This document shows positions 35,834-41,575 of a stretch of DNA of 64,000 nt, in pieces. Position numbers and translations under genes: made by a program. Numbering within the stretch: the first letter of the stretch is position 1; each line of letters begins with the position of its first letter. Origin of the DNA: Aeropyrum camini SY1 = JCM 12091 (GTDB lineage: Archaea; Thermoproteota; Thermoprotei_A; Sulfolobales; Acidilobaceae); assembly GCF_000591035.1 (NCBI RefSeq), contig NC_022521.1, positions 1,426,001 to 1,490,000 on the forward strand, read 5' to 3'. The notes below the pieces were generated by a model. It worked only from the letters and a program-made list of their open reading frames with translations. It made no database searches and was not told the DNA's origin.

Positions 35834-35843
35834 GCTTATAAAC
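35834..35843 (+). promoter_or_regulatory. Putative promoter of the first pilin-like gene
   Basis: GCTTATAAAC is a good archaeal TATA box, predicting transcription from about 35865. The first start codon on this strand is at 36011, so the mRNA would carry a leader of about 145 bases, unlike the leaderless style of most genes here. The 282-base gap 35729-36010 also holds the divergent thiW promoter. Confidence 0.45.
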
Positions 35844-35937
35844 CTGGGGTAACGCGTGGTGGGCAACCTGTAAGTTTACTATCACCTTACTAACAACTAC
35901 CGGACTCCAGGAGAGCCAAAACCCCTCTAGGGGCCGA

Positions 35938-35957
35938 GGCGGGTGCGTGCACCCGCC
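35938..35957. repeat. Perfect 20-base inverted repeat in the pilin leader
   Basis: GGCGGGTGC and GCACCCGCC are separated by two bases (9-bp stem, or 8-bp with a CGTG loop). Just before it lies a smaller CCCC-TCTA-GGGG hairpin near 35922-35933. The repeat begins 73 bases before the TTG start of the gene at 36011 and would form a stable RNA hairpin or a protein-binding site. Confidence 0.5.
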
Positions 35958-36010
35958 AAGGACAATGGCTTCCTGGCGTCAAGAATCCAAAAGAAAAAGG
36001 TGTAAACATC

Positions 36011-36601
36011 TTGAGTCTAGGAGACATAGCTAAGGCCCCTGCAGTGCTAATGCTGGCGCTGCTGGCGGCCGCGGGTCTCGGGGGCGTGTTCGCCCTGTGG
36101 GACGAGCTCCTAACGATCGACGTTACGGTCGAGACGGGAGAGCTCGACGCAGCTCTAAGTGTAGAAGGTATGGGCGACAACGAGGAAGACATAGCAACCA
36201 GCATGGGCGAGCCTGATCCCACGGTCAAGGATGTGTCCAGCATATCCTGTGTATTGAGTGAAGACGGTAAGAGTATCGACGTTACCATAACGAACGCATA
36301 CCCCAGCATAACATACTGGTGTGAGCTGAACCTTGAGAACACTGGCACTATACCGCTCAAGGTGCAGTCAATTGAATTCACAACCGATGAGATATCTCCA
36401 GTTGCCGAGGAGTTCGGCTTCTATGATGACCTAGATCTAAACCCGCCGGATACTTTTGTAGTTGGCACACAGCTCGAACCTGGTGACGTTGGCTACGACT
36501 TCCTGGTGATTCACCTTAGCAACGATGCTGATGAGAACTCGACATACAATGCGACAATAGAAATTCAGGTAGTCCAGTGGAACGAGTTCACCTCACCGTA
36601 A
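36011..36601 (+). CDS. TasA/camelysin-like secreted fibre protein 1
   Basis: 196 residues with a signal peptide of the SipW-substrate type: hydrophobic VLMLALLAAAGLGGVFA followed by LWDELLTIDVTVETGELDA. In TasA/CalY proteins the equivalent A-(F/Y)-x-(S/D)-D motif marks the mature N-terminus. The rest is beta-rich, acidic and has a conserved-looking centre ITNAYPSITYWCELNLENTG and end IEIQVVQWNEF, both shared with the next protein. Two Cys (SSISCV, YWCEL) may form a disulfide. Family knowledge: TasA forms biofilm fibres in Bacillus; archaeal bundling-pilus protein AbpA is a relative. TTG start with AAGGTG eight bases ahead. Confidence 0.8.
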   Translation: MSLGDIAKAPAVLMLALLAAAGLGGVFALWDELLTIDVTVETGELDAALSVEGMGDNEEDIATSMGEPDPTVKDVSSISCVLSEDGKSIDVTITNAYPSITYWCELNLENTGTIPLKVQSIEFTTDEISPVAEEFGFYDDLDLNPPDTFVVGTQLEPGDVGYDFLVIHLSNDADENSTYNATIEIQVVQWNEFTSP

Positions 36602-36655
36602 TAACAAGGATATAGACTAGGTGTGACGGAGGTATAACCTAAATTTCATAATATT

Positions 36656-36665
36656 TTTATATAAA
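36656..36665 (+). promoter_or_regulatory. TATA box for the second fibre gene
   Basis: TTTATATAAA is a perfect palindrome centred 26 bases before 36686, four bases ahead of the ATG at 36690. A near-leaderless transcript is predicted, and the ATG at 36672 would fall outside it. Confidence 0.55.
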
Positions 36666-36689
36666 TGAACAATGAAGGATGTGGTGAAA

Positions 36690-37433
36690 ATGAATAAACA
36701 GACTGGCGTGTTGGCAACACTGCTCGCAGTAATGGCTGTCTCTGCCCTTGCAGGAGCTTTTGCACTCTGGAGCGAGGACCTTAGTATAAGCATGACAGCA
36801 GACACAGGCGAAGTTGACTGGGAGTTCATAGACAACAGCTGGCAAAGCAAGGACCCATGCTACTTACCCGACGATGGTGACCCAGAAAGTACAGCACCGT
36901 TATCTGGAGACGACTGGAACCTATACCCGCAGGGAACCCCACCGTTCTCCTCGCCTTATGACTGGAGTGGTCAGTCGCCGGTGAGGGTGACAAAGGACGT
37001 CGGCTGCGACGAAGTGATACCACATGATACCGATGGTGACGGCGACTGGGATACACTAGAGTTCAACATATACAATGCATACCCATTCTACTACACACAG
37101 CTAACATTCGACGTTAGAAACAATGGCACTGTTCCTATAAAGATAGCTCAGGTTTGGATAGACGAGAACTGCGATAACACAATAGACCATGGTCCATATC
37201 ACGAGATAAATAAGAACGAAATTGAAGACCAAGGAGTCTACCTCTTCGACGGTGACATACTGATGTGGTGGGGTAACAACTTCGGCGTTCAGCTGGAGCC
37301 TCTTGAGGACGCCGCTATGGGCATGGATATAGTGGTGGTCCAGGAGGCTGATGAGAACCAGGTCTACAACTTCTGTGTTGTACTCCAGGCTGTTCAGTGG
37401 AACGAGTACGACATGGTTGTGTCGGAGGACTAA
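36690..37433 (+). CDS. TasA/camelysin-like secreted fibre protein 2
   Basis: 247 residues from ATG 36690, preferred over ATG 36672 because of the promoter position. Signal segment VLATLLAVMAVSALAGAFA then LWSEDLSISMTADTGEVDWE, the same mature N-terminus pattern as its neighbours. Shared blocks with protein 1: FNIYNAYPFYYTQLTFDVRN plus NGTVPIKIAQV, and VVLQAVQWNEYD at the end. Unique: DTDGDGDWDTLEF, a DxDxDG calcium-loop-like motif, and an acidic, Pro-rich insert near residues 55-95. Four Cys. A strong hairpin/T-run terminator follows, consistent with high expression as the main fibre subunit. Confidence 0.82.
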   Translation: MNKQTGVLATLLAVMAVSALAGAFALWSEDLSISMTADTGEVDWEFIDNSWQSKDPCYLPDDGDPESTAPLSGDDWNLYPQGTPPFSSPYDWSGQSPVRVTKDVGCDEVIPHDTDGDGDWDTLEFNIYNAYPFYYTQLTFDVRNNGTVPIKIAQVWIDENCDNTIDHGPYHEINKNEIEDQGVYLFDGDILMWWGNNFGVQLEPLEDAAMGMDIVVVQEADENQVYNFCVVLQAVQWNEYDMVVSED

Positions 37434-37491
37434 CCTAGGCTACTGGTAGGAGTAGACGCTGTAACGGGCAGAAGCGAGCATAGGGCCTATA

Positions 37492-37522
37492 CACCCCTTG
37501 CGGGGTGAACATTTTATTTTTT
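37492..37522 (+). terminator. Hairpin plus T-run terminator
   Basis: CACCCC (37492-37497) and GGGGTG (37502-37507) form a 6-bp stem with a four-base loop, followed by ATTTTATTTTTT (37511-37522). This is the clearest intrinsic-type terminator in the window and lies 58 bases after the second fibre gene. Confidence 0.65.
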
Positions 37523-37553
37523 CTCGATTAAATCCGATATTATTGTGCAAAAA

Positions 37554-37562
37554 CTTATATAC
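37554..37562 (+). promoter_or_regulatory. TATA box for the fibre 3 / signal peptidase operon
   Basis: CTTATATAC is centred exactly 26 bases before the TTG at 37584, predicting a leaderless mRNA. A TGCAAAAAC motif immediately upstream (37546-37554) resembles the TACAAAAACC element at 40919-40928. Confidence 0.55.
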
Positions 37563-37583
37563 TTTGAATTATAACTATAATAT

Positions 37584-38174
37584 TTGGGATGTATCTCTTT
37601 GAAGTCCGATGGAAGAACTCGGAGTCCGCCAGGGCTTGCCATAGTGCTAGTACTACTAACGATCCTAGCGGCCGCCCTGTCAATACCACCGTCTAAAGGG
37701 TTGTGGAGTGAGGATTTGAACATCTCAGTGGGAGTATCTGTCGCGGATTACACTTGCCCCAGGAGCAAGGGGTTCTGGCAGCACCAGTTTTCGGCGGCTC
37801 TAGGAATTCAGGGGAGTGGTTTCTTCTCCCTCTCTGAACTAGATGACATGCTCCTAGCCATAAACGGCTCTTCCCAGATTTTCAGTTTCGACCAGCCGTC
37901 TATCTATGACAGAGCGGCTGAGGCACTAGCGGTGCTTAAGCCGCCCTACGCAGATATGGAAGAGAAGGTTGAGGCTCAGCTTCTCGCCTTATGGCTCAAC
38001 CACGTCTCCGGGTATGCGGATGGCTACGAAATAAGTTATGATGGCACAGTCTATGACGCTTCTTCGCTCATAGCCGCTGTTGAGGACGCGTTAGTCAATG
38101 GAGACCAGGATAACTATGTATACTGGAAAGACGCAGCTGAGACGTTCAACACCAGCTTTGACTGCGGACCCTAG
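37584..38174 (+). CDS. TasA-like secreted protein 3 with a C-terminal SKGFW domain
   Basis: 196 residues. Basic N-terminus, hydrophobic GLAIVLVLLTILAAALSIPP, then KGLWSEDLNISVGVSVADY, matching the start of mature fibre proteins 1 and 2. After that it is different: TCPRSKGFWQHQFSAALG starts a helical domain ending in FNTSFDCGP, with one Cys at each end that could close a disulfide. Short SKGFW/GYWKNH-like motifs occur in other secreted proteins. It may be a minor, tip or anchor subunit. Only five bases separate it from the signal peptidase gene. Confidence 0.72.
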   Translation: MGCISLKSDGRTRSPPGLAIVLVLLTILAAALSIPPSKGLWSEDLNISVGVSVADYTCPRSKGFWQHQFSAALGIQGSGFFSLSELDDMLLAINGSSQIFSFDQPSIYDRAAEALAVLKPPYADMEEKVEAQLLALWLNHVSGYADGYEISYDGTVYDASSLIAAVEDALVNGDQDNYVYWKDAAETFNTSFDCGP

Positions 38175-38179
38175 GGGGA

Positions 38180-39382
38180 TTGCTATACTTGGAGAGCAGG
38201 GGGACTGGGCCGCGGCTTCATGGCTCAGCCGGGGAGAGGCTTCCGGAATCGACTATTAACAGCCTGAGCAGTTTAGTGCCGTTGCTCCTTTCAGCTGCTA
38301 TGGCACACTGGCTCATGCGATTAGGCGTCATAGGAGGTGATGCCCGGCTTCTTACAGCCGCCATACTGGGGGCTGGCGGGTTCATTGCTATGCGCCCCCT
38401 TATACATAGTTCGGGCGTTCTCGGCAGGTACCCGCCGCTGGCACCGTTTGGCGCTGGAGTCCTCATGGCTTCTCTATACGTTGTATTTGGAACCGTTTTA
38501 ACGGGGCTAGGTAAGAGCCCCTATATCCACACACCTTATTATATACTCTACAACTCTGTATTATCTCTAGCACTTGTGGCTGGCGAGGAGGCCTTAAGGA
38601 CCTCTTTTATCTGGAGGACGGGATACAGGCGTCCAGCATTAGCGATACTAATGTCAACACTGCTCATCATGGCTGTTTATCTCAATCCATCTCAGGTTGA
38701 GGGTCTAACATCGGGGGAGGGGGTAAGAAACTTTGCTTCCTGGGCTTTCCCATTGCTTTCAGTTAACCTGGCAGCCGGGGTGGCAAGCCTATACTACGGC
38801 TACATAGGCTCGGTCTCCCTAAGGCTACCGACGGCTCTAGCATGGGTTATGATGCCCGTGCTTCCTAACGTGTATACAACGGACGCTATACTAGTGCATG
38901 TTATTGTGGCTGTCATAGTCATAACTTTTCTATCGATGACCGCCCAACCAACATTAGGATCGCCTCTAACCCTAGCCGACAGGCTCATGATAGGGTTGTC
39001 TATACTCGCAGTGGTAGGAGTGTGGCTCAGCCACGGCCTGCTCGGATACTACGCCCTAGTGGTGTTATCGGGCAGCATGGAACCCGAGCTTGAGAGGGGA
39101 GATATAGTCATAGTCTCGAGCGTTGATCCTGGAGATGTTAAAATTGGGGATGTGATTCTCTATGCTAGCACCAACGGCCCGGTGATACATAGGGTTATAG
39201 AGGTTCGAGAAGGCGGCGGAGGCTCTATAGAGTACATAACTAAGGGGGACGCGAACGAAGCCCCCGACTCTGACCCTGTCAAGCCCGAGCAAGTTAGGGG
39301 GAGGGTGATCGGGGTAGTGCCTGATGTCGGCGGAGTTTCTCTATGGCTTAAACAGGCGCTCAACGCAATCTTACGAGGCTAG
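38180..39382 (+). CDS. Signal peptidase I (SipW/Sec11 type) with a multi-spanning N-terminal region
   Basis: The catalytic domain is C-terminal (about 290-400): VVLSGSMEPELERGDIVIV holds the Ser, PVIHRVIEVREG the His that replaces the bacterial Lys, and YITKGDANEAPDSDPV the Asp. The first 285 residues contain about eight hydrophobic segments, far more than the one or two of an ordinary signal peptidase. SipW in Bacillus is encoded next to TasA and processes it; the neighbourhood here implies that this enzyme processes the three secreted proteins upstream. TTG start. 400 residues. Confidence 0.82.
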   Translation: MLYLESRGTGPRLHGSAGERLPESTINSLSSLVPLLLSAAMAHWLMRLGVIGGDARLLTAAILGAGGFIAMRPLIHSSGVLGRYPPLAPFGAGVLMASLYVVFGTVLTGLGKSPYIHTPYYILYNSVLSLALVAGEEALRTSFIWRTGYRRPALAILMSTLLIMAVYLNPSQVEGLTSGEGVRNFASWAFPLLSVNLAAGVASLYYGYIGSVSLRLPTALAWVMMPVLPNVYTTDAILVHVIVAVIVITFLSMTAQPTLGSPLTLADRLMIGLSILAVVGVWLSHGLLGYYALVVLSGSMEPELERGDIVIVSSVDPGDVKIGDVILYASTNGPVIHRVIEVREGGGGSIEYITKGDANEAPDSDPVKPEQVRGRVIGVVPDVGGVSLWLKQALNAILRG

Positions 39383-39496
39383 CCAGCGGTGTTTTCTGGT
39401 ATGGCGGTGGGTGATGAGATGTCACGTGGCTTGGCAATGATGACGTGCCGAACATATAACTATCTGAAAGTACAAATACCACGTGGTATAATAGAT

Positions 39497-40879
39497 TTGA
39501 AACAACTGATAGCTCTGATGATACTCCTCCTGGGCATGCTCACCCTGGCCTCTCCAGCGGCTAATGCCCAGGAGGAGAACACCGTAAGGATATACGTGGC
39601 CACCTACCCCTCTGGCCTGCCTATAAGCGTGGATGGGGTGATCTATTTCCCCAGCACGTCCCAGCCAATCCGGCTAGAATGGGAAGAGGGTTCGACACAT
39701 ACTGTTGAGGTGATAGTAGACACATGGTACACAGATGACGGTGAAAGGTATGTCTTCAAAACGTGGAACACCGGCGAAAATCAGAAGCAGGTATCAGTGG
39801 TAGCGGATAAGCCCAAGTCTGTGGTGGCTGTGTATGAAAAACAGTATTTCCTGGAGGTGGTTTCGCCCTACGGTAGCTCAAAGGGCTCGGGGTGGTATCC
39901 GGCGGGAAGCCTGGTTGAGATAAGCGTTGACGATACTATAGAAATTGGGGATGGAGTGAGAGCCTCCTTCTTGAGGTGGAGCGAGAGGTATAACCCCGAG
40001 TTAAGCCAAACATCCATTTACCTCTTTGAGCCTAAGACGGTGAAGGCCTACTGGAAGATAGAGTACAGGATTCAGGTTTCAGCCGAAGTTGAGGGGGCAC
40101 AGGTGACTGAGGGGGGATGGTTCGAGGAGGGCTCGATAATAACGGTGACTGCGCAGGAGGAGGTGGGCGATGGCGAGGCGTTGTGGCGCTTCTCGGGTTG
40201 GAAGGTTGAAAGCGGTGCTGTGGATCCTGATGTCGACCTCGACTCGAGAACACTCAGCCTGAAAGTCTTGGCGCCTGCACAACTTGTTGCACAGTACGAC
40301 AGGTACTACTATGTGGAGGCTCTAACGCCCGTGGGAGAGGTGGAGGGCTCGGGATACTACAGAAGCGGGGATATAGCTGTGGTGAGCGTGCCAGATATTG
40401 TGGAGGCTGGAGAGGATACCAGGTACGTATTCACAGGCTGGACGGGGGACGTGGAGTCGCCTAGTCCCAGACTAACCATTAATGTTGAGAAGCCGCTTAG
40501 GCTTGTGGCGACATGGCAGGTCCAATACCGGGTTGATGTTGAGTCGAACGTGCTGCAGATCCAGGACCTCAGGGGCGACGGATGGTATTCTCTAGGCGAG
40601 AAAGTAAAGCTTTACGCCCCAGAGACTGTCAGCTCGGGGTACGGCATAAAATATGTATTTGCCGGGTGGAAAGGCGATTTCAACAGTAGCAAACCCAGCG
40701 ACACAGCCATCGTCACCGGCCCAGCGAAGATAGAGGCGGTATACGTGAAGAATTACACGGGGTTCTACCTTAACCTAGCCGCCGTTTCAACAGTCATTAT
40801 TCTACTGTACCTTGGCTACACACTACTTATACCGAAGGCTCTCATAGCGTTGAAGCGGAAGGACGAAAAAACTGAATGA
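39497..40879 (+). CDS. Membrane-anchored surface protein with five beta repeats
   Basis: Starts with a textbook signal peptide, KQLIALMILLLGMLTLA then SPAANA before the likely cut, so I use the TTG at 39497; the frame runs back to 39389. Then five repeats of about 75 residues, each with a G-W-Y/F-x-x-G-x block and a repeat core such as YVFTGWTGD, YVFAGWKGD, WRFSGWKVE, FLRWSER, YVFKTWNTG (resembling InlB B-type or Listeria-Bacteroides repeats). A C-terminal membrane segment AAVSTVIILLYLGYTLLI is followed by a basic tail. Likely a cell-surface anchor or adhesin for the fibres. 460 residues. A TACCACGTGGTA palindrome (39477-39488) lies just ahead of the start. Confidence 0.75.
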   Translation: MKQLIALMILLLGMLTLASPAANAQEENTVRIYVATYPSGLPISVDGVIYFPSTSQPIRLEWEEGSTHTVEVIVDTWYTDDGERYVFKTWNTGENQKQVSVVADKPKSVVAVYEKQYFLEVVSPYGSSKGSGWYPAGSLVEISVDDTIEIGDGVRASFLRWSERYNPELSQTSIYLFEPKTVKAYWKIEYRIQVSAEVEGAQVTEGGWFEEGSIITVTAQEEVGDGEALWRFSGWKVESGAVDPDVDLDSRTLSLKVLAPAQLVAQYDRYYYVEALTPVGEVEGSGYYRSGDIAVVSVPDIVEAGEDTRYVFTGWTGDVESPSPRLTINVEKPLRLVATWQVQYRVDVESNVLQIQDLRGDGWYSLGEKVKLYAPETVSSGYGIKYVFAGWKGDFNSSKPSDTAIVTGPAKIEAVYVKNYTGFYLNLAAVSTVIILLYLGYTLLIPKALIALKRKDEKTE

Positions 40880-40880
40880 A

Positions 40881-41024
40881 TTTTTGTAGATTGGTAAAAA
40901 TAAGACTGGATTACAAGATACAAAAACCAAATTATAGAGAAATACATTTGATTTGATATTACACATAGATTAATAAAGATACGTTCTGTACATTACACAA
41001 TATGCTTATAAGGGTTTTTGTAGA
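40881..41024. repeat. AT-rich region with three copies of TTTTTGTA
   Basis: TTTTTGTAGA occurs at 40881-40890 and 41015-41024. TACAAAAACC at 40919-40928 is the exact inverse of GGTTTTTGTA at 41013-41022. ATTACACA also occurs twice (40958-40965, 40992-40999). They lie upstream of a winged-helix regulator gene and downstream of the surface-protein operon, so operator sites are likely. A TATA-like GCTTATAAGG is near 41004-41013 and a second, GTTTAAAT, near 41050-41057. Confidence 0.5.
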
Positions 41025-41076
41025 ACACCTGTAATATGATAAGGGATGAGTTTAAATCTAACAGGGTATGGTATAT

Positions 41077-41436
41077 ATGGGTAAAGGCAGTAAGGGAGGG
41101 GAAAGAGCTAGCACGAGGTGTGAGGACGAGCTACAGCACTTCCTAAACCAGATTATGAGTCTTTACCAGGAGGATCCTAAGATGAAAATACTTTTTTACC
41201 TAGCCGAGCTGGGAAAACCCGCCTCTATAAGGAAGATAGCGAGGAACGTTAGAATGAGCCATAAAAACGTGATAAAACATGTTAACGCCCTGGAGAGAGC
41301 GAACCTAGTACAGGTAGCCTATAGGCAGTCAAACCTGACGCTATACAGGCTATCGGACAACGTAAGGCTAAGAACGCTGTCATTCATGAACTGTACACTC
41401 CATAACGTTACATTGTCGGATCCCAGCTCACCGTAA
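41077..41436 (+). CDS. Winged-helix transcriptional regulator
   Basis: 119 residues. KILFYLAELGKPASIRKIARN then VRMSHKNVIKHVNALERANLV is a clear winged HTH, with LVQVAYRQSNLTLYRLSD as the wing. The flanks are short, so no ligand domain is obvious. ATG 41077 fits the TTTAAA box at 41051-41056 for a leaderless mRNA; a GTG/ATG slightly upstream is possible. Its position after the fibre/signal-peptidase block and behind repeated TTTTTGTA motifs makes it the candidate regulator of that block and of itself. Confidence 0.82.
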   Translation: MGKGSKGGERASTRCEDELQHFLNQIMSLYQEDPKMKILFYLAELGKPASIRKIARNVRMSHKNVIKHVNALERANLVQVAYRQSNLTLYRLSDNVRLRTLSFMNCTLHNVTLSDPSSP

Positions 41437-41496: not shown

Positions 41497-41575
41497 TGGT
41501 GCGGCCGCCGGGATTTGAACCCGGGACCACCGGCTTGGAAGGCCGGCGTCCTAGTCCAGGCTAGACGACGGCCGC
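41497..41575 (-). tRNA. trnG: tRNA-Gly(TCC)
   Basis: Read on the minus strand: acceptor GCGGCCG pairs with CGGCCGC; anticodon arm CCGGC-CTTCCAA-GCCGG with anticodon TCC (reads GGA); T arm CCGGG-TTCAAAT-CCCGG; discriminator A. The CCA end is encoded (41497-41499). No intron. A TATA-like GCTTATAG on the same strand near 41630-41640 suggests a short 5' leader. No integrase gene or att-like repeat is seen beside it. Confidence 0.95.

Follow-up and report, generated by a model that had tools for sequence, protein, structure and literature searches.

The nearest solved relative of the two fibre subunits analysed here is AbpX, from the ABP-like fibres of Pyrodictium abyssi (PMC11952670; PDB 9sj2 and 9rhp). 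The solved chain 9sj2_C starts QWSETLSL, thus placing tryptophan second in the mature protein, and in the 9rhp construct this strand is found at the C-terminus, an arrangement that we read as a donor-strand-complemented monomer. In the literature the AbpA pili of Pyrobaculum calidifontis are described as archaeal bundling fibres that resemble TasA and belong to the donor-strand type. In the Bacillus TasA/TapA/SipW and camelysin systems the substrates likewise carry aromatic P2′ residues and a dedicated ER-type signal peptidase gene lies beside them. TasA, with phenylalanine at P2′, is cut by SipW, and aromatic residues at this position hinder E. coli LepB (PMC10269814). The partner subunit TapA is able to complement by strand donation (PMC10151520). 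The Sulfolobus thread (Saci_0406/Saci_0405) is held together by donor-strand complementation, and a gene beside that of the subunit is proposed to encode a donor-only cap (PMC9715654). Saci_0405 resembles the thread subunit structurally and is without a predicted Sec signal. To our knowledge, no chaperone, usher or cap is settled for archaeal donor-strand-exchange fibres.

The window analysed here is a 64,000-nucleotide stretch of the Aeropyrum camini SY1 genome (positions 1426001–1490000 of a single contig of 1,595,994 bp) and holds a real and conserved six-gene module of the AbpX kind, a fibre type that is already known. As far as the accessible literature shows, the primary AbpA and AbpX papers aside, four of its features are undescribed: a putative donor-only helical subunit, the pairing of such a subunit with a B-repeat protein, a calcium-loop paralogue and a class-wide link to a polytopic peptidase. 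The locus is a compact parts list for fibre start, stop and attachment, offering a candidate end subunit, a putative anchor and a possible rationale for the peptidase.

Organization of the locus

The six adjacent genes of the preliminary description were all found as open reading frames on the + strand. Together with promoter elements predicted from the sequence and the right-hand boundary they are arranged as follows.

35834–35843, + strand: putative TATA-like element gcttataaac upstream of A1, with a leader of about 140 nt downstream
36011–36601, + strand: A1, TTG start, 196 residues
36655–36666, + strand: putative TATA-like element of A2, which would leave the A2 start at 36690 nearly leaderless
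36690–37433, + strand: A2, with an alternative in-frame ATG at 36672
37554–37563, + strand: putative TATA-like element for the A3, peptidase and repeat-protein genes
37584–38174, + strand: A3, 196 residues
38180–39382, + strand: signal peptidase, 400 residues
39497–40879, + strand: B-repeat surface protein, with a longer reading frame from 39389
41004–41013, + strand: putative TATA-like element of the regulator gene
41077–41436, + strand: winged-helix (HTH_5/ArsR-like) regulator, alternative start 41068
41497–41575, − strand: tRNA-Gly(TCC), the conserved right-hand limit of the locus

A thiW/ABC-transporter block forms the left flank and the tRNA-Gly gene with a MATE transporter gene the right flank, all on the − strand. 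The regulator start at 41077 is favoured by the start of its orthologue in locus L153. Gaps of 5–6 bases separate A3, the peptidase and the repeat-protein reading frame, which probably form one transcript, and GC content drops from about 0.60 to 0.50 across the locus. A1, A2 and A3 all display a signal-peptide helix followed by [A/G]-L-W-x-E-x-L, as had been described. Neither this motif nor the gene set is due to chance, since dozens of genomes show the same gene order, A1-A2-(A3)-peptidase, and the solved chain 9sj2_C has a like start at the equivalent position; chance reading frames are ruled out by the same synteny. A type IV pilin or archaellin system was likewise rejected, as A1, A2 and A3 score below every pilin model cut-off and both an ATPase and a pilus membrane platform are absent from the locus. 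Viral origin was rejected after a search of viral contigs that found no A2 relatives. The A1 leader (35866–36025) folds much better than shuffled sequences (z −3.6) and contains a strong GGCGGGTGC/GCACCCGCC hairpin; a conserved 5′ leader RNA was set aside despite this value because no obvious conservation was seen in the same-genus locus L024.

Sequence homology of A1 to AbpX

The signal peptide of A1 comprises residues 1–28 and the mature protein starts LWDELLTI from codon 36095, with tryptophan at P2′. An A1 profile searched against PDB sequences matched AbpX 9sj2 over positions 30–188 with an E-value of 2.3e-17, and a single-sequence phmmer search gave 3.8e-6. A class-wide A1 profile reaches 4.9e-34, although its alignment contains the AbpX gene of locus L126 itself, and the independent figure is therefore 2.3e-17. 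L126 (genome G173) encodes an AbpX with 100% identity to the entire 163-residue chain that was solved. The three window starts, A↓LWDELLTI, A↓LWSEDLSI and G↓LWSEDLNI, share their register with the start of 9sj2_C, which lies at the equivalent position. Thus, the x-W-S/D-E-x-L mature N-terminus of A1 occupies the place of the AbpX donor strand and would act as a donor in the same manner. The fold model of A1 is nearly all-β, with residues 20–38 flexible and a moderate pLDDT of 77; compared with PDB folds, TasA (8aur) had the highest TM-score among the 50 matches listed, at a value of 0.41 that is not significant (E 0.036). These fold matches are weak, and the identity of A1 was drawn from its sequence, by which A1 is a homologue of AbpX in both body and N-terminal strand, and we hold it as highly probable that A1 makes a fibre.

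The locus had earlier been termed TasA-type, which is retained for the likely mechanism and a distant fold, with AbpX replacing TasA as the nearest relative. None of the TasA/camelysin models PF12389, TIGR04088 and TIGR04090 reached its curated cut-off: PF12389 found no match in the A. camini genome while its B. subtilis control was positive, a window protein scored 16.4 bits against TIGR04090 (cut-off 60) and the best relatives gave 1.2e-3 (PF12389) and 5e-5 (TIGR04090). No AbpA chain was among the matches of the A1 profile searches of PDB sequences, and the profile searches matched no Sulfolobus thread protein.

A dedicated signal peptidase and tryptophan at P2′

The C-terminal third of the peptidase is that of an archaeal signal peptidase (TIGR02228, 102.7 bits against a cut-off of 51.85). 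The catalytic Ser-299 and His-337 are invariant, together with Asp-357 and Asp-363, in a Ser-His arrangement without lysine, and the protein is a predicted ER-type signal peptidase I. The earlier reading as a dedicated signal peptidase is supported; the score against the SipW equivalog NF046067 is 72.5 bits, far under the cut-off of 190. In comparison with the Bacillus system the enzyme has a large extra part of about 260–270 N-terminal residues, membrane-spanning by hydropathy estimate, for which no Pfam family was matched. The same genome encodes a separate short housekeeping peptidase of 160 residues (L040), and an unrooted tree built from the catalytic part sets short peptidases apart from all long ones (support 100/97).

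The long peptidase lies within 3 kb of A1 or A2 in 45 of the 51 fetched loci, one of which (L125) has two divergent copies and a long peptidase adjoining one A1 copy only. Five of the other six loci end at contig ends and the sixth has a peptidase split by a frameshift; counting this frameshifted copy, the association is found in 46/46 loci uncut by contig ends. In the Pyrodictium-type locus L126 the gene next to AbpX likewise encodes a long signal peptidase, of 380 residues. Tryptophan at P2′ is present in A1, A2 and A3 of the window and is near-universal in A1 and A2 of the class. Since the three proteins share this residue, it may, by analogy with the aromatic P2′ residues of the Bacillus substrates, be the reason for a dedicated enzyme, which very probably cuts all three.

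Proposed model of fibre assembly

In the mechanism we propose, A1, A2 and A3 would leave the cell through Sec and be processed by the ER-type peptidase encoded beside them, which would tolerate tryptophan at P2′. Once released, the N-terminal strand of each A1 (LWxExLxI) would fill the groove of the A1 molecule that follows, a donor-strand exchange that would allow polymerisation in the absence of an ATPase or usher. A2 would be a second, calcium-loop subunit that co-polymerises with the fibre or decorates it. A3, with a donor strand and a helical head in place of a β domain, would donate only and would be located at the open-groove end of the fibre as a terminator or nucleator, perhaps also serving as an adaptor to the membrane-anchored B-repeat protein. 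That an extracellular fibre of the AbpX type is produced by this full mechanism is likely. The most elaborate form of the model, where the fibre is ended by a chimeric all-helical donor-only subunit docked to a membrane-anchored B-repeat stalk and the polytopic domain of the peptidase may couple processing to assembly at the membrane, is doubtful.

A3 combines a donor-strand-like N-terminus with a predicted helical head

The mature N-terminus of A3, LWSEDLNISV from codon 37701, resembles a donor strand and precedes a head with the signature SKGFW...QLLALWLN. Common ground with A1 and A2 is limited to the signal peptide and to the strand LWSEDL, and in other genomes an A3 profile matches A1-like proteins over this N-terminal stretch. 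The A3 model contains a compact all-helical domain (residues ~60–190, mostly with pLDDT > 90) that gave no match among PDB folds (best E 1.2); no Pfam family was found for A3 and its profile matched no PDB sequence whatever, AbpX included. The helical model and the missing AbpX match rule out A3 as a third β-type subunit. The proposal of three fibre subunits therefore holds for A1 as the major and A2 as the variant AbpX-type subunit, and for A3 is reduced to the N-terminal motif. Because its mature head is predicted to be all-helical rather than β, A3 probably donates a strand but cannot accept one, and on balance we lean towards a donor-only terminal subunit. In comparison with the Bacillus system, A3 is predicted to be helical and its profile search of PDB sequences detected no relation to TapA; unlike Saci_0405, A3 carries a signal peptide and a head predicted to differ in fold from the fibre subunit.

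The A3-type domain (SKG[FY]W...QLLAxWLN) recurs at the C-terminus of other proteins, namely SdrD_B-type surface proteins (L093–L095, L181, L182) and B-repeat proteins (L168, L174). Outside the class, L177 has a fusion of the head with an A1-like domain, located in an operon of the order peptidase, A1, fusion and DUF5305 protein, and this fusion is the best evidence tying the A3 head to an AbpX-type fibre system. The head may alternatively be a ligand- or surface-binding module at the distal end of the fibre, making A3 a tip adhesin and the B-repeat protein a separate adhesin or anchor. Its presence on such varied stalks speaks for this reading, as do the A1-like modules with further domains, often SdrD_B, that occupy the A3 slot in other genera (L101, L105, L117, L125, L128); however, a C-terminal module on anchorless secreted proteins could itself be an attachment domain, and we regard a tip adhesin as a credible second choice with somewhat less than an even chance. 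Returning to A3 as a donor-only end subunit, the B-repeat fusions of L168 and L174 weakly suggest joint action of A3 with the B-repeat protein encoded in the locus, and a link between the two is put forward tentatively. A3 is not essential everywhere, since L028 and L031, where it alone is missing, keep the other five genes.

The SdrD_B-type proteins with a C-terminal A3-type head are encoded at L093:6562-8100, L094:7223-8770 and L095:5735-7291, in fetched neighbourhoods with no A1 or A2 match.

A2 is a calcium-loop paralogue of A1

Mature A2 starts LWSEDLSI from codon 36765. It displays 38% identity with A1 over ~109 residues (E 1.1e-6), its profile matches AbpX with an E-value of 4e-9, and on this similarity A2 is a paralogue of A1. 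Class-wide, A2 proteins carry DTDGDGDxD and DLxGDGxxD loops at fixed positions; window A2 keeps the first, a calcium-type DxDGDGxxD loop with the sequence DTDGDGDWD, and has lost the second, a loss seen in Aeropyrum. A loose regular expression found a calcium-type loop in 41/45 A2 proteins and in 12/56 A1-labelled proteins, several of these 12 being third-slot or mislabelled proteins. From this motif A2 would be expected to bind calcium, and the lost second loop counts against the proposed model.

A2 is conserved as well as A1, is longer and has its own TATA-like element, features that could point to A2 as the major subunit or to two separate fibres formed by A1 and A2. In L126, however, AbpX, which is of the A1 type and is the solved chain, stands with the peptidase in a fetched region devoid of A2 matches, and this reading is unlikely. 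The same region lacks matches to A3, the B-repeat protein and the winged-helix gene, so that relative to the AbpX locus the window locus adds a calcium-loop paralogue, a helical, putatively donor-only protein, a candidate anchor and a regulator. Still less probable is that A1, A2 and A3 build a surface layer or matrix coat rather than a fibre and that A. camini has no bundling pili: a literature search found no study of A. camini filaments and the A1 fold model is only moderate, but A1 is homologous to a solved fibre protein across both donor strand and body.

B-repeat protein and regulator

The repeat protein contains B-repeats (Flg_new_2/InlB-type) between a signal peptide and a C-terminal membrane helix, in agreement with the membrane-anchored surface protein of the preliminary description, and would anchor the fibre at the membrane. 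The sixth gene encodes the announced winged-helix regulator (HTH_5/ArsR-like), which probably controls expression of the locus from within it, in contrast to the control by SinR in Bacillus.

Conservation of the module and its probable loss in a sister genome

The complete six-gene set was found in four genomes from two families: that of the window, L024 of the same genus, L027 from the same family but another genus, and L092 from another family. L025 and L026 are consistent with the six-gene order as far as their contig ends. None of the outcomes named beforehand as speaking against the module, absence of six-gene conservation among them, was found. A1 homologues are present in 79/229 genomes of the class and A2 in 34/398 sampled genomes of the phylum, and a second collection has its best named relative in L132, a MAG of an Aeropyrum sp. 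The class-wide cassette and A2 allow fibres to be predicted in many uncultured archaea.

G005, a complete genome of the same genus (1,669,696 bp), is presumably that of A. pernix K1. Its thiW neighbour is 95% and its MATE neighbour 87% identical to the counterpart in the window, and between them the regulator alone of the six genes remains, the five fibre genes being absent. Since the more distant genome G006 has the full set at the same place, it is simpler to assume that A. pernix lost the genes. The regulator may have other targets, as G005 keeps it in the absence of the fibre genes. The sister genome provides a natural negative control. Extracellular filaments of A. pernix K1 seen by cryo-EM are flagella and a CedA1-type pilus (PMC9905601), a report that fits loss of the fibre genes without proving it. 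The orphan regulator of G005 lies between thiW and tRNA-Gly (L153:1911-2261).

In the other loci a DUF5305-type protein usually comes after the core of A1, A2 and long peptidase, a different winged-helix gene is often found upstream of the core and the third slot is varied, including A1-like domains with SdrD_B heads. The DUF5305 protein, located 3′ of the long peptidase in most loci (L098:2272-3333, L102:9768-10793 and similar), holds the slot of the window B-repeat protein and is a candidate basal or assembly factor. Proteins of 440–500 residues in L101, L105, L117, L125 and L128 carry additional domains behind an A1/A2-like one, of the SdrD_B type in L101 and L105, and are likely adhesin-bearing subunits. 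Third-slot or neighbouring proteins with an A1-like start are encoded at L096:1516-2157, L097:1545-2228, L107:9523-10140 and L113:5544-6131, several of them with dense Cys/His clusters after the donor strand that are perhaps metal-binding.
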